Source of the DNA: an uncultured Aquimarina sp.
GTDB taxonomy: Bacteria > Bacteroidota > Bacteroidia > Flavobacteriales > Flavobacteriaceae
Direction of reading: 5' to 3'
Assembly: GCF_947500065.1 (NCBI RefSeq)
Contig: NZ_CANMQT010000014.1
Span: forward strand, 1-64,000
DNA: 64,000 bases
In this document: positions 59 to 11,954 of the stretch, piece by piece
How positions within the stretch are numbered: the stretch's first letter is position 1
How the letters are laid out: the number at the start of each line of letters is the position of its first letter
The notes under the pieces: model-generated
The model's input: the letters and a program-made list of their open reading frames with translations, nothing else
What the model was told of the DNA's origin: nothing
The model's database searches: none
Translations under genes and position numbers: made by a program

Positions 59-391
59 TTAACTCAGTTCTTTGTTATCTGGCCAACGAGTAAATGAATT
101 GGTTCTACCCGTACTTTTAGCTACATCATCCGGAATTACTAGAATATCTCCTTCCAGAATGTACTGTCCATTAATTTTCTCCACTTGAACAGTCTGTCCA
201 TACAATTGAATGGTTTCGACGACACCTTGTTCTTCGGGAAACGCTCTTTCCTGAACAATTTTTTCCTGATCAACAGTTTCTTGAGTTTCTTCTGCCGAAA
301 ATTCTGCTGTATCCTTTTCACAAGAAATACAAACGATAAGCATTACCCAAATCATCGGGATCAAGCTTGTAATTTTAATTGAGTTTTTCAT
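59..391 (-). CDS. Lipoprotein resembling a truncated metalloprotease propeptide
   Basis: This 110-residue protein starts with a lipoprotein signal: hydrophobic residues 7-22 followed by a CISC lipobox, so it should be anchored in an envelope membrane. The charged middle and the segment NGQYILEGDILVIPDD resemble the propeptides of flavobacterial astacin/HEIGH-type zinc proteases. The protease at 44256-45116 has a similar KYLVSGDITIP segment. In those families a motif like RWPNN opens the catalytic domain; here the protein reads RWPDNKELS and stops, and no catalytic HExxH follows. It may be a truncated protease gene or a stand-alone propeptide-like protein. The open frame is clear; the family link is inferred from motifs only. 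Confidence 0.6.
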   Translation of the reverse strand: MKNSIKITSLIPMIWVMLIVCISCEKDTAEFSAEETQETVDQEKIVQERAFPEEQGVVETIQLYGQTVQVEKINGQYILEGDILVIPDDVAKSTGRTNSFTRWPDNKELS

Positions 392-6281: not shown

Positions 6282-7388
6282 CTATAATTTATCTATAACA
6301 CTACTTAATCTATCCGTAATCTCACTAATACCTCCTACTCCATCAACTCCAAAGTACTTATCTTGTTTTTGATAATAGTTTTTTAGAATTGCCGTTTCGT
6401 CATAATATACTTTGATACGATTACGAATTACACTTTCATCAGCATCATCAGGACGTCCTGATGTTTTTCCTCTTTCTAATAAACGTTGTACCAACACCTC
6501 ATCATCTACCTCTAAAGCAACCATCGCGCTTACTTCTGCTCCTTTAGAAGATAATAATTCTGCTAATGACTCAGCTTGTGCTTCAGTTCTTGGGAAACCA
6601 TCAAAAATGAAACCTTTCGCATCTGGATTTTTATCCACTTCAGCATTCAGCATATTGATGGTTACTTCATCTGGAACTAGTTGTCCTTTATCAATATACG
6701 ACTTTGCTAATGTTCCTAGCTCAGTAGCATTTTTTATGTTATACCTAAATACATCTCCTGTAGAAATATGTATAAGATCATATTTTTGTTTTAAAACTTC
6801 TGCTTGTGTTCCTTTTCCTGCTCCTGGAGGTCCGAATAACACTAAATTTGTCATGTTGTTTTGCTTTAATTGGTACACTTCTGTAAGATTACGACCTAAA
6901 CCATCATAGTCTAATCCGTATCCTACAATAAATCGGTTTGGGATTTCTATCCCTATATAATCTAAAGTAATTTCTTTGGTATAAGCTTCTGGTTTAAAAA
7001 ATAAAGTTGCAATTTTCACTTCCTTACATCCCTTATCTTTAAACATTTTGGTCAATTCTACAATTGTATTACCTGTGTCTACAATATCTTCAAGAATAAC
7101 AACCGTTCTGCCTGATATATCTTCTTTTAATCCAATGAGTTCTTGAACTGTAGAAGTTGTCTTTGTCCCTTCATAAGAAGCGAGTTTTACAAAACTCACT
7201 TCACAATCATGATCGAATCTTTTTAGCACTTCAGACACAAACATAAAGGCGCCATTAAGTACCCCAATAAAAAGAGGCTTTTTATCTGATAAATCCTTAT
7301 TAAGTTCATCAGCTAATTCATCTATTGCTTTGATTATTTTCTCTTCAGCAATAAATGGTATAAATTGTAATTCATGTAGTGTAATCAT
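6282..7388 (-). CDS. hpt-adk: Fused hypoxanthine phosphoribosyltransferase - adenylate kinase
   Basis: A single 368-residue frame encodes two nucleotide enzymes. Residues 1-178 are a hypoxanthine phosphoribosyltransferase with the PRPP-binding loop VVILEDIVDTGNT (about 96-108), which salvages hypoxanthine to IMP. Residues 179-368 are a complete adenylate kinase starting MTNLVLFGPPGAGKGT, with P-loop at 186-194, the NMP-binding FDGFPRT segment and an R-rich LID, interconverting ATP, AMP and ADP. No stop separates the halves. An internal ATG at the junction (near 6854) could also allow a free kinase. The same fusion is known in other Flavobacteriaceae. A TATCTTTG -7 box lies upstream, divergent from purK. 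Confidence 0.94.
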   Translation of the reverse strand: MITLHELQFIPFIAEEKIIKAIDELADELNKDLSDKKPLFIGVLNGAFMFVSEVLKRFDHDCEVSFVKLASYEGTKTTSTVQELIGLKEDISGRTVVILEDIVDTGNTIVELTKMFKDKGCKEVKIATLFFKPEAYTKEITLDYIGIEIPNRFIVGYGLDYDGLGRNLTEVYQLKQNNMTNLVLFGPPGAGKGTQAEVLKQKYDLIHISTGDVFRYNIKNATELGTLAKSYIDKGQLVPDEVTINMLNAEVDKNPDAKGFIFDGFPRTEAQAESLAELLSSKGAEVSAMVALEVDDEVLVQRLLERGKTSGRPDDADESVIRNRIKVYYDETAILKNYYQKQDKYFGVDGVGGISEITDRLSSVIDKL

Positions 7389-8848: not shown

Positions 8849-9334
8849 ATGAGCAAAGTAGGAATAATCATGGGCAGCACAAGCGATATGCCCGTTATGG
8901 AAAAGGCAATCGACATTCTACAAGGTTTTGACATAGAGGTCGAAGTTGATATTGTATCAGCGCACCGTACACCAGAGAAGTTATTTGATTATAGTAAAAA
9001 TGCTCATACTAGAGGTATTTCAGTAATCATTGCTGGTGCAGGTGGCGCCGCCCATCTTCCTGGAATGGTAGCTTCTTTATCTCCGCTGCCGGTAATAGGT
9101 GTTCCTGTAAAATCCAGAAACTCTATTGATGGTTGGGACTCTGTTCTTTCCATATTGCAAATGCCTGGTGGAGTCCCTGTAGCAACGGTAGCTTTGGATG
9201 GAGCTCTTAATGCAGGTATTCTAGCCGCTCAGATCATTGGGGTATCCGACAAATGTGTATTGGATAAAATTCTTGTTTATAAAGAAGGATTGAAACAAAA
9301 GGTAATTGAAGGAGCTAAACAGATAAAAAAATAA
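8849..9334 (+). CDS. purE: 5-(carboxyamino)imidazole ribonucleotide mutase
   Basis: This 161-residue class I PurE moves the carboxyl group of N5-CAIR to form CAIR. Diagnostic segments are GIIMGSTSDMPVMEKA (residues 4-19), the substrate loop SAHRTPEKLFDY and the GAGGAAHLPGMVAS loop. Length and motifs are normal for the family. It works directly after PurK, and the two probably form an operon despite a 136-base gap with a repeat remnant. A strong hairpin terminator begins about 20 bases after the stop and is shared with a probable small RNA on the other strand. Confidence 0.97.
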   Translation: MSKVGIIMGSTSDMPVMEKAIDILQGFDIEVEVDIVSAHRTPEKLFDYSKNAHTRGISVIIAGAGGAAHLPGMVASLSPLPVIGVPVKSRNSIDGWDSVLSILQMPGGVPVATVALDGALNAGILAAQIIGVSDKCVLDKILVYKEGLKQKVIEGAKQIKK

Positions 9335-9350
9335 GACACTAAAATTAGTG

Positions 9351-9384
9351 TAAAAAAAAAGAGTCGCTCCTCAGCGACTCTTTC
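9351..9384. terminator. Bidirectional terminator of purE and small RNA 1
   Basis: GAGTCGCT and AGCGACTC (9361-9380) form an 8-bp GC-rich stem with a 4-base loop. T-rich flanks extend on both strands; on the minus strand nine T residues follow the stem. It should end purE and the minus-strand RNA. Confidence 0.85.
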
Positions 9385-9482
9385 CAATATCAGGTCTTAC
9401 AATAGAATATAACAATATTTATTAACCAACTTAAATATATTACACAAAAAATTCATCGTAAGACCATACTCTTAAAACCTGA
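9352..9482 (-). ncRNA. Candidate small RNA 1 (about 130 nt)
   Basis: The minus strand has a complete transcription unit with no reading frame. A promoter at 9485-9514 is followed by a start near 9480. The transcript can fold into a long hairpin: TCAGG pairs with CCTGA and TCTTAC with GTAAGA, separated by a one-sided bulge of about 14 nt, with an AU-rich distal stem. It ends in the strong hairpin with nine U residues at 9352-9380. A long bulged hairpin beside purine genes recalls 6S-type RNAs, but that identity is only a hypothesis. Confidence 0.6.
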
Positions 9483-9484
9483 CA

Positions 9485-9514
9485 CAAAGGTAAACCCTTA
9501 CTTTAATTACGCAA
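9485..9514 (-). promoter_or_regulatory. Promoter of small RNA 1 (TTG - 19 - TACCTTTG)
   Basis: On the minus strand a TTG (9512-9514) is followed after 19 bases by TACCTTTG (9485-9492). Both boxes and the spacing match the Bacteroidota consensus. No minus-strand coding region follows. Confidence 0.65.
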
Positions 9515-9666
9515 TAATTATCTGTCAAAACTTATTAACATTTTCGATAAAAATCACCTTTTATCGTTAAAATGCATTAAAATTATTTTTATTTCGCTTT
9601 TTCCCATAGAAAAAACATACATTTTTTTGCATCCTCTATGTAAATAATAGATTTTCAATCAAAATA

Positions 9667-9795
9667 GAAAAGAAAAGAGCTACAATAATTGTAGCTCTTT
9701 CAATATATTTGACCTTTTCAAAGATTACTTATTGTTACCATACCCCTATAGCAATAATGTATTAGATTCTTTGTTTAGGTCATTACTAATAAACC
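9667..9795 (-). ncRNA. Candidate small RNA 2 (about 128 nt)
   Basis: A second non-coding unit lies on the minus strand. The transcript would contain TGACCT-AAA-CAAAGA paired with TCTTTG-AAA-AGGTCA (a 6-bp stem, a symmetric AAA/AAA internal loop, then another 6-bp stem). A further TTATTG/CAATAA stem lies inside. Then comes the terminator hairpin AAAGAGCTACAA/TTGTAGCTCTTT (9674-9700) and a U-rich tail. Length, layout and the ATATTG-AAAGAG junction before the terminator match small RNA 1, so the two may be paralogues. Confidence 0.58.
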
Positions 9796-9799
9796 TATA

Positions 9800-9832
9800 C
9801 AAATGTATCAGTATCATACTTGATTAATTCAA
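9800..9832 (-). promoter_or_regulatory. Promoter of small RNA 2 (TTG - 22 - TACATTTG)
   Basis: The minus strand has TACATTTG at 9800-9807 with a TTG 22 bases upstream (9830-9832, within TTTTG). Confidence 0.55.
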
Positions 9833-9923
9833 AACGTGATGCCATAAAAAAAGCATTTATCGATAAAAAACACACTTTTTCGACAAGAGATCATATAAAA
9901 CATAAAGAAAACATTCTTAGATC

Positions 9924-11954
9924 ATGAAAAACCCATTGTTAGAATCATTTGATCTTGCTCCTTTTTCTCAAATAGAATCGGAGCATTTTTTACCTGCTAT
10001 CAAAAACGCAATCACAATAGCCAAACAAGAAGTTGATGCAATTGTTGCCAATAAAGAAACTCCCTCCTTTTCTAATACTATAGAAAAATTGGAATATAGC
10101 GGAGAATTACTGGATAGAGTAACCAGTATCTTTTTTAATCTGAATAGCGCAGAAACTAATGAAGAAATCCAAAAAATTGCACAAGAAGCTTCTCCATTGC
10201 TTTCTGAATTCAGTAATGATATCGCTTTAAATACGGATCTATTTAAAAAAATAGAATCTGTATATCTAGATAAAAATACATTAAACCTCTCTCCAGAGCA
10301 ATCAACATTATTAGAAAAGAGGTACAAATCATTTTCTAGAAATGGAGCTAACCTTCCTGCTGATAAAAAAGAACAGCTTAGAGAAATAGATAAAGAACTT
10401 TCTCAACTTAGTCTTAAATTTGGTGAAAACATATTAGCCGAGACTAACAAGTTCGAAATGCTATTAACTGATAAAGCTGATCTGGATGGTTTACCAGATG
10501 GAGCCAAAGAAGCGGCTAAAGCACTTGCTGAATCCAAAGAAAAAAAAGGATGGATGATTACCTTAGATTATCCTAGTTACATTCCTTTTATGACTTATGC
10601 CAATAACCGAGAACTGCGCAAAAAATTAGCCTTAGCTTTTGGCTCTAAAGGATTCCAAAACAATGAGCTAGACAACCAAGATATTGTACTTAAAATTGCC
10701 AAACTACGTTATGAACGTGCCAATGTGTTAGGCTATACCTCTCACGCTAATTATGTTTTAGAAGAACGTATGGCAGAAACCCCTGATAAAGTATTTTCTT
10801 TTTTAAATGAAATTCTGGAAAAAGCAAAGCCTGCCGCAAAAGCAGAATTTAAACAATTAGAAAATTTTGCCAAAGAATTAGATGGAATTGATCAGCTTCA
10901 GAAATGGGATGGCGCATTCTATTCAGAAAAATTAAAACAAAAGCTTTTTGATCTTGATGACGAAAAGCTAAAACCATACTTTAAGTTAGAGAATGTTATT
11001 GATGGTGTTTTTCAGATAGCTTCTAATTTATTTGGGCTACAATTTGAAGAAACAAATCAAGTAGACAAATATCACGAAGAAGTAAAAACATATAATGTTA
11101 CTGATACACAAGGTAATTTTATTTCTATCTTTTATGCTGATTTTCATCCAAGATCAGGGAAACGAAACGGTGCGTGGATGACCTCATACAAACCTCAAAT
11201 GAGGAAAGATGGGAAAAATATTAGACCACATATATCTATCGTCTGTAATTTCACGAAACCTACACCTAGTAAGCCTTCGCTTTTAACCTTTAATGAGGTA
11301 ACCACCTTGTTTCATGAGTTTGGTCACGCCTTACACGGTATGTTAGCCAACACTACCTATCCTGGATTATCGGGAACCAGTGTGTATTGGGATTTTGTAG
11401 AACTACCATCTCAGGTATTAGAGAACTGGTGCTATGAGAAAGAAGCATTAGAATTATTTGCCAAACATTATGAAACAGGAGAAGTAATTCCCATGGAATT
11501 AGTGCGCAAGATCAAAGAATCATCCACCTTTATGGAAGGAATGTCAACTATGCGCCAATTAAGTTTCGGTTTACTGGATATGTCCTGGCATGCACAAAAC
11601 CCAAGTGATATTAAAGATGTTAAAGCATATGAAAAGAAAGCTTTTGCTGGAACTGCTTTATATCCTGATGTGGCAGAGAATTGTATGAGCACTGCTTTTT
11701 CTCATATTTTTCAAGGAGGGTATTCTGCAGGGTATTATTCTTATAAGTGGGCAGAAGTATTGGATGCAGATGCATTTGAATATTTTAAGGAACATGGAAT
11801 CTTTAATAAGGAAGTAGCAACCAAATTTAAAGACAATGTGCTATCACAAGGAGGAACAGAGAATCCCATGACTTTATATAAACGTTTCCGTGGTCAAGAA
11901 CCAAAACCGGAGGCCTTGTTAAAACGGGCTGGATTAATAAAACAGGGAATTTAA
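9924..11954 (+). CDS. M3 family oligopeptidase / peptidyl-dipeptidase
   Basis: The 676-residue zinc peptidase carries the thimet-type active site HEFGHALH at residues 464-471. Downstream are the family segments WDFVELPSQVLENW and GYSAGYYSYKWAEVLDADAF. There is no signal peptide, so it probably acts in the cytoplasm, degrading short peptides like bacterial Dcp or oligopeptidase A. The length (about 680 in both families) does not separate them; the VELPSQ..ENWC segment looks closer to oligopeptidase A. It is preceded by the two small RNAs on the opposite strand, and no classical -7 box is evident near its start. Confidence 0.94.
   Translation: MKNPLLESFDLAPFSQIESEHFLPAIKNAITIAKQEVDAIVANKETPSFSNTIEKLEYSGELLDRVTSIFFNLNSAETNEEIQKIAQEASPLLSEFSNDIALNTDLFKKIESVYLDKNTLNLSPEQSTLLEKRYKSFSRNGANLPADKKEQLREIDKELSQLSLKFGENILAETNKFEMLLTDKADLDGLPDGAKEAAKALAESKEKKGWMITLDYPSYIPFMTYANNRELRKKLALAFGSKGFQNNELDNQDIVLKIAKLRYERANVLGYTSHANYVLEERMAETPDKVFSFLNEILEKAKPAAKAEFKQLENFAKELDGIDQLQKWDGAFYSEKLKQKLFDLDDEKLKPYFKLENVIDGVFQIASNLFGLQFEETNQVDKYHEEVKTYNVTDTQGNFISIFYADFHPRSGKRNGAWMTSYKPQMRKDGKNIRPHISIVCNFTKPTPSKPSLLTFNEVTTLFHEFGHALHGMLANTTYPGLSGTSVYWDFVELPSQVLENWCYEKEALELFAKHYETGEVIPMELVRKIKESSTFMEGMSTMRQLSFGLLDMSWHAQNPSDIKDVKAYEKKAFAGTALYPDVAENCMSTAFSHIFQGGYSAGYYSYKWAEVLDADAFEYFKEHGIFNKEVATKFKDNVLSQGGTENPMTLYKRFRGQEPKPEALLKRAGLIKQGI

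Follow-up and report, generated by a model that had tools for sequence, protein, structure and literature searches.

Tandem candidate small RNA genes beside purE in Aquimarina: a proposed LytTR-type switch with a core complementary to start codons of surface genes

In the 64,000-nucleotide stretch of Aquimarina DNA analyzed here (the window), the gap between purE (8849-9334, plus strand; Pfam AIRC, E 4.1e-62) and an M3 peptidase gene (9924-11954, plus strand; Pfam Peptidase_M3, E 2.4e-142) holds two minus-strand units with an RNA of about 125 nt each. purE is the convergent neighbor and marks the syntenic slot; the peptidase gene is the divergent neighbor. We judge it moderately probable that the units are tandem, probably paralogous sRNAs, that a sigma-A-type promoter, an operator, and a terminator belong to each of them, and that they form a LytTR-type switch in which unit 1 covers the start codons of surface genes. 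In this model, a regulator, most likely of the LytTR type, would bind a direct repeat with a 20-bp period upstream of the -33 element and turn on both units along with other sRNAs. Unit 1 would then pair through its near-invariant A/U-rich core with mRNA leaders of the form UUAACCAACUUAAAUAUAUUACACAAUG, with first contact probably made through the loop AGUUGGUUAA. Since the start codon would be covered, we expect repression, that is, less translation of curlin-repeat proteins, double-glycine-type peptides, and lipoproteins. Unit 2 would have diverged from its sibling, would carry a GGGGUAUG loop, and would act on a target other than that of unit 1. Together, the two RNAs probably adjust the cell surface when a signal arrives. 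Among the open-access papers searched, mostly judged by their listings, we recognized none that describes these RNAs.

In both units, the letters point to a genuine sRNA gene that has a separate promoter and intrinsic terminator. The preliminary description had reported two minus-strand units with TTG/TAnnTTTG promoters (spacing 19 and 22), ATATTG junctions, and terminators, and direct reading of the letters gave the same picture. Unit 1 occupies 9353-9480, with a predicted start at 9480 and a predicted end at about 9353. Its promoter, as read from the sequence (9485-9514), comprises TTG at 9514-9512, 19 nucleotides, and TACCTTTG at 9492-9485. The 5' element AGGUUUUAAGAGU (9468-9480) is unpaired in the consensus fold of unit 1, yet paired in the minimum-energy fold of the window's own sequence. 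The core UUUGUGUAAUAUAUUUAAGUUGGUUAAUAAAUAUUG (9413-9448) forms a weak A/U hairpin, and the intrinsic terminator hairpin (9356-9385) has the stem AAAGAGTCGCT/AGCGACTCTTT and a T-run that extends to about 9352. Unit 2 occupies 9668-9795, with a predicted start at 9795. Its promoter (9800-9832) has TTG at 9832-9830, 22 nucleotides, and TACATTTG at 9807-9800, and stands at a comparable place in many sister gaps. The unit 2 RNA would carry the 5' element GGUUUAUUAGU (9785-9795), unpaired in the fold, an apical-loop motif GGGGUAUG (9739-9746) that is kept in 42 of 45 distinct unit-2 sequences, and an intrinsic terminator hairpin (9674-9700) with the stem AAAGAGCTACAAT/ATTGTAGCTCTTT. Both starts were placed by the rule that the TAnnTTTG box lies at -12 to -5 relative to start sites (PMC9723704), so that the RNAs would open with AGGUUUUAAGAGU and GGUUUAUUAGU. 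An independent gene with a promoter and an intrinsic terminator, as expected of a base-pairing trans-acting sRNA, is thus present at the sequence level for each unit. The unit 1 promoter sits inside a conserved stretch, GTAATnAAAGTAAGGnnTTACCTTTG (50 aligned rows, selected by the TACCTTTG box itself). As a separate observation, the conservation of GTAATnAAAGTAAGGnnTTACCTTTG (9485-9510, minus strand) seems to exceed what a promoter needs, and the stretch contains an inverted repeat; it is possibly the site of a second regulator.

A match to the interval was found in 60 of 66 genomes of the genus, and we read 58 purE-M3 gaps, chosen because they match the interval. Three rows were dropped, L015 and L031 as duplicates of L161 and L162, and L160 for having neither purE nor M3; gap ends were set by hand for L013, L136, L147, L155, L156, L158, and L159. 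The unit-1 core is kept in all 58 gaps, the unit-1 5' element in 52, and unit 2, by its 5' element (also the extraction anchor), in 44. In the A1 rows, a 24-nt core fragment served to extract unit 1 and the 5' element to extract unit 2, so invariance there is partly by construction. Among the 50 rows anchored instead on the TACCTTTG box, the core is letter-identical in all 49 that are readable. Counted by 5' elements, a single unit 1 is accompanied by a single unit 2 in 40 of the 58 gaps, and unit 1 stands alone in eight. Another four gaps contain three or four units, with masked bases interrupting one of them, and six show neither element. The copy number of the array is thus variable, with three or four units in L149 (G039), L134 (G037), L142 (G049), and L162 (G060).

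The basal stems and terminators of both units covary, as the preliminary description had proposed to look for in the purE-downstream gap of relatives. For unit 1, 14 of 36 pairs covary, with 41 cells altered on both sides and 98.6% of cells paired; for unit 2, the values are 8 of 14 pairs, 35 cells, and 99.7%. None of 500 shuffles matched the observed values and slid structures were only 35 to 56% paired, where the structures tested came from those very alignments. Compensatory changes fall in helices 4 and 5 of the unit 1 terminator, and 5 of 10 pairs in the unit 2 terminator are changed on both sides. The inner hairpin of unit 1 is nearly constant (11 of 14 pairs never vary), and covariation is uninformative on it because it hardly varies. 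For unit 2, two perfect 6-bp stems around an AAA/AAA loop had been described; these stems, TGACCT/AGGTCA and CAAAGA/TCTTTG, are both in the minimum-energy fold of the window's unit 2, but this does not hold genus-wide, as the inner stem has other bases or another geometry in many members examined. Compared with shuffles, folding with terminators included gave z -6.3 for unit 1 and z -4.4 for unit 2. Without terminators, the effect is modest, with a median z of -2.15 for unit 1 (46 sequences; 27 below -2) and -2.10 for unit 2 (45 sequences; 25 below -2, 3 above 0). The comparative data, namely architecture, near-invariance, and covariation, are stronger support for the units than the folding z values.

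The two units are probably paralogous, at one to four copies per locus. The R1 model (unit 1) matches the window at 9356-9484 with 149.8 bits and the R2 model (unit 2) at 9672-9799 with 125.8 bits, where the window sequence is one training row of each. R1 also matches unit 2 (E 0.039) and R2 matches unit 1 (E 0.0022), both weakly and at the expected place. Related adjacent copies, as in sibling sRNAs, are suggested by these weak cross-matches and by the presence of both kinds of unit in 44 of 58 gaps. The earlier view of the units as duplicated regulatory RNAs gains from the covariation, from the cross-matches, and from the extra copies in 4 of 58 gaps.

The near-invariant unit-1 core, UUUUGUGUAAUAUAUUUAAGUUGGUUAAUAAA, is complementary in sister genomes to mRNA leaders that end at a start codon. 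Among the matches listed, 19 core matches in sister genomes lie off the locus, and we scored those with an ORF of at least 40 codons whose start falls between -14 and +12 relative to the end of the match. A start codon was found at 9 of the 19 on the strand complementary to the sRNA and at none on the other strand (9 of 20 if the omitted home-genome match C7:99333 is included); the remaining 10 of 19 lie away from start codons. For 20 control matches to other parts of the interval, hand-picked among the matches listed, the corresponding strand gave no start codon and the opposite strand gave one. The nine start-codon matches represent about five gene types and are not nine independent events. 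Three lie at genes for curlin-repeat proteins, with Pfam Curlin_rpt scores of 66.9-68.3 bits (cut-off 20.7). Another three lie at genes for short peptides whose leader was assigned by eye to the double-glycine type, with no Pfam match and one weak NCBIfam match to a bacteriocin-like leader. The rest lie at genes for one lipoprotein-like and one secreted-looking protein, both judged by eye and without a Pfam match, and for an amino-acid kinase, the weakest target, with a duplex of -22.1 kcal/mol. The other eight predicted duplexes range from -32 to -37 kcal/mol. In seven duplexes, pairing runs without a break for 22-29 bp at its longest; the corresponding lengths are 15 in L357 and 11 in L363.

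Unit 1 therefore has a conserved region complementary to translation-initiation regions, a signal that is weak in the home genome alone. Outside contig C12, among 1124 home-genome genes, the start regions of five reached a complementarity score of at least 14.5 points versus 1.67 in shuffles (15 of 300 as high), and three versus 0.5 did so in the register-limited version (7 of 300 as high); the free-register version showed no excess at 12-13 points (12 versus 16.0; 7 versus 6.8). For the whole set scanned (1.28 Mb), the count was five versus 0.48 (0 of 100 shuffles), which includes three C12 paralogues chosen for their matches. These three C12 peptide genes carry the leader AACTTAAATATTTTACACAATG or nearly so. 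As an observation in its own right, they are adjacent genes for peptides of 62-64 aa with a double-glycine-type leader, at about 65700-66300 of C12 (L367), and their mRNA leaders are complementary to unit 1. Within the window, a weak candidate target is a 110-aa lipoprotein-like ORF (59-391, minus strand) with the leader AACAACTTAAATATTTTATCATG, whose register-limited score of 15.0 is second of 1124. Two home-genome core matches, C7:99333 and C7:219732, stand beside terminators and not at starts, and the unit-1 5' element gave no clear start-region enrichment in the 1.28 Mb scanned. Because the excess in the unselected 1.26 Mb is weak and threshold-dependent, each genome probably has few targets.

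These leaders admit another explanation, which we regard as somewhat unlikely: UUAACCAACUUAAAUAUAUUACACAAUG could be a translation or transcription element shared by surface genes, and unit 1 an inverted copy of it or an unrelated likeness that acts otherwise, for example by protein binding. Unrelated gene families do have a nearly letter-identical leader, which alone would suggest a common element, and the enrichment is weak in the unselected part of the home genome. However, the complementary stretch is the best-conserved part of unit 1, it belongs to a predicted hairpin whose loop is exposed, and start codons accompany the matches on the target strand only (9 versus 0). We retain start-codon pairing as the predicted action of unit 1. 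The target rule, leader UUAACCAACUUAAAUAUAUUACACAAUG plus a near-invariant core, is explicit, so a target list can be drawn up for any genome of the genus. To our knowledge, a target rule has been put forward for few sRNAs of environmental Bacteroidota.

Upstream of most units lies a putative operator, a direct repeat TCGA-N16-TCGA inside TTTTRTCGA half-sites. For unit 1, the half-sites are TTTTAACGA and TTTTATCGA (9542-9572, minus strand), and for unit 2, TCTTGTCGA and TTTTATCGA (9858-9888, minus strand), both in direct orientation with a period of 20 bp. The 58 gaps contain 98 sites with at least 7 of 8 letters, and 89 of these stand 84-91 nt before a 5' element. The operator is present for 89 of 101 units, that is, for 47 of 48 unit-2 rows and 42 of 53 unit-1 rows, leaving 11 of 53 unit-1 rows without a 7/8 site. 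Other periods from 14 to 27 gave 3-19 sites and letter shuffles averaged 6. Sibling sRNAs are expected to have a common activator site; the units have an upstream site in common, putatively one for an activator. Across the 6.57-Mb home genome, a 31-nt operator pattern with up to 3 mismatches gave 10 matches, compared with 1 for a control pattern; this pattern was loosened to take in both units and misses two of three C6 units. The 10 matches are the two units, a LytTR/rpsF promoter, the C6 array, the C13 unit, and five others, among which one on C2 precedes an exported-protein-like gene and one on C1 lies inside an open frame.

At the LytTR/rpsF promoter (L278), a LytTR response regulator gene is divergent from an rpsF-rpsR-rplI-like operon (727-1440 and 1601-2707 of that locus; names given by eye), with the operator between them. 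The best match to the LytTR gene in each of 27 genus genomes is 82-100% identical to it. The operator precedes it with at least 7 of 8 letters in 24 of the 27; the period is 21 in L320 and L333, and no operator was seen before the LytTR gene in L334. LytTR proteins are described as binding pairs of direct repeats upstream of the promoter, with a distance of 12 bp in most cases and 11 or 13 bp in some, and the promoter-proximal repeats of AgrA are centered near -60 (PMC6193735, PMC4227749). A LytTR promoter is expected to have direct repeats at a distance of about 20-22 bp upstream of -35/-33, and the period of 20 found here fits. The spacing at unit 1 is similar to that at LytTR direct-repeat promoters, and its proximal TCGA falls at -67 to -64 from the predicted start. 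Unlike those promoters, the operator here precedes sRNA genes and rpsF, and the likeness drawn here concerns geometry. A LytTR activator is favored because of this site geometry and because the operator occurs at the promoter of a LytTR gene. The regulator that would bind the operator is most likely a LytTR response regulator, and there is a roughly even chance that the LytTR gene beside rpsF encodes the activator itself. The shared operator ties sRNA arrays to a named regulator class, which makes the input side testable.

Two other loci of the home genome carry C-rich sRNA-like units. On contig C6 (L277 780-1745; L280), the plus strand carries three units marked by an operator-like repeat, TAnnTTTG, and terminators; C-rich motifs are repeated in this array and two of its units have C-rich terminator loops. 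At C13:82153 (L342 1501-1800, contig minus strand), a lone C-rich unit has the same operator. C-rich units were found in 12 of 14 sister loci scanned. In the 1.28 Mb scanned, the C-rich RNAs gave no clear start-region enrichment and unit 2 gave none over shuffles, so for unit 2 complementarity to initiation regions was not found there. It is conceivable, though we consider it unlikely, that unit 2, through its GGGGUAUG loop, interacts with the C-rich sRNAs, or that both sequester one RNA-binding protein. They have the operator in common, CCCC motifs are repeated in the C6 and C13 units, and the terminator loop of C6 unit b has CAUACCCC, the exact complement of GGGGUAUG. Against this, the duplexes that unit 2 would form with the four C-rich RNAs do not clearly surpass shuffles, which were as good in 27 of 200 cases for C6b, 44 for C13, 107 for C6c, and 173 for C6a. 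For the duplex of unit 1 with C6b, 6 of 200 shuffles were equally good. Under our preferred reading, unit 2 would be a sibling that has diverged and acts on a target of its own. A wider proposal, possible but doubtful in our view, is a LytTR regulon with mainly RNA output, comprising the purE siblings (unit 1 as a start-codon antisense RNA that silences the cell surface, unit 2 with a GGGG loop), the C6 and C13 C-rich sRNAs (titrating an RNA-binding protein or pairing), and rpsF, the gene for ribosomal protein S6, within the circuit. Such a regulon would unite in a single system the Bacteroidota counterpart of the OmpR-OmrA/B and GacA-Rsm circuits.

Among known systems, the pair is best read as OmrA/OmrB-like sibling sRNAs under putative LytTR-type control. 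OmrA and OmrB of enterobacteria are encoded by tandem genes, are controlled by OmpR, and have curli-related targets. The units likewise appear as related sRNAs that lie side by side, have separate promoters, are probably controlled by a response regulator, and have predicted surface targets that include the curli type. In contrast, the unit-1 core would pair over up to 29 bp and cover the start codon, the operator is of LytTR type instead of OmpR type, and the likeness drawn is one of description. A further difference is that Hfq is not known to occur here. A second comparison is with GibS and FopS of Bacteroides, paralogous sRNAs whose binding sites lie around the start codon in mRNAs of surface proteins, where the seed R1 of FopS is single-stranded near the 5' end (PMC11697453). 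The likeness is that of paralogous Bacteroidota sRNAs with start-codon pairing to surface-protein mRNAs, predicted in our case; unlike in GibS/FopS, the complementary core is internal in unit 1 and the two genes form a tandem provided with an operator. FopS was not among the 16 Rfam matches of 9000-10200, where the Rfam copy may be without a FopS model. By present evidence, the pair would work like OmrA/OmrB and like FopS; this is a likeness of action and implies no membership in either family. Lastly, Rfp18 of Flavobacterium psychrophilum is a structured sRNA conserved beyond the species with predicted pairing to metalloprotease and adhesin mRNAs, and its deletion mutant has lower mRNA of two metalloproteases, which indicates positive regulation (PMC9723704). 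By description, the units resemble it as structured flavobacterial sRNAs with predicted mRNA pairing; unlike Rfp18, unit 1 is expected to repress.

The units had also been suggested to be 6S-like, a suggestion we do not uphold. In that view, they would bind RNA polymerase and have been duplicated beside purE/purK in the manner of cyanobacterial 6Sa. The neighbors are indeed purK-purE, the hairpins are bulged, and cyanobacterial 6Sa (Yfr7) lies downstream of purK (PMC1242208). We find this very improbable: 6S-Flavo (RF01685) has a single match in the genome, on contig C18 with 101.9 bits; no 6S family matched 9000-10200 even at E 10 in Rfam; the RNAs are about 125 nt long; and the unit-1 core is complementary to start codons. 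The anatomy also differs, for an open 5' element, a start-codon-complementary core, an own terminator, and a direct-repeat operator are, judged from the letters, those of a base-pairing sRNA. No Rfam family reached its gathering score anywhere in the window. The weak matches of the interval were far below gathering, with DapZ at 26.2 (gathering 56), Phe_leader at 20.4 (55), and GibS at 18.9 bits (115; E 7.9), so membership in the GibS family was not found. Rfam searches gave no match at E 0.1 on 20 other-genus loci and just four matches on four C-rich loci, each below gathering. That the units are small ORFs encoding short peptides is hardly credible, since frame length and start codons vary whereas pairing is kept, even if 18 of 45 unit-2 sequences have a 24-25-codon frame that runs from a loop AUG, mostly into the terminator.

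Outside the genus, the R1 model matched Gillisia (E 2.2e-4) and Christiangramia (E 2.6e-3), in both cases directly behind purE and on the same strand. Over 397 genomes of the family, it gave 18 matches at E of at most 0.01, 15 of them outside the genus, with about 4 expected by chance. Among seven with a purE position, those in G072 (E 9.9e-6) and G176 (E 3.6e-4) directly abut purE and the other five (G121, G136, G137, G162, G165) do not. A purE match was present in 156 other-genus genomes, and we inspected the purE gaps of 60 of them, using a set of core motifs fixed after the gaps had been viewed. A related-looking core (UUGAUUAAUAGC, GUUAAUAGC, GGUUAAUAAA) was found on the same strand in 28 of 60 gaps and on the opposite strand in 0 of 60, with 0.5 in shuffles; 21 of the 28 also have a promoter and a terminator. 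Gillisia-like genera have an altered core, AGAAUGGUUAAUAAAU. We infer that the short core forms of other genera are homologous to the unit-1 core. In 13 of the 28 core-bearing gaps, a palindrome like TTATGTATGCATAATA stands upstream of the purE-side unit (L240, L249, L250, L253, L261, L263, L264, L268, and others); this palindrome suggests a different regulator in those genera. Elsewhere in the window, a single minus-strand ORF (6282-7388) joins a phosphoribosyltransferase domain to adenylate kinase (Pfam Pribosyltran, ADK).
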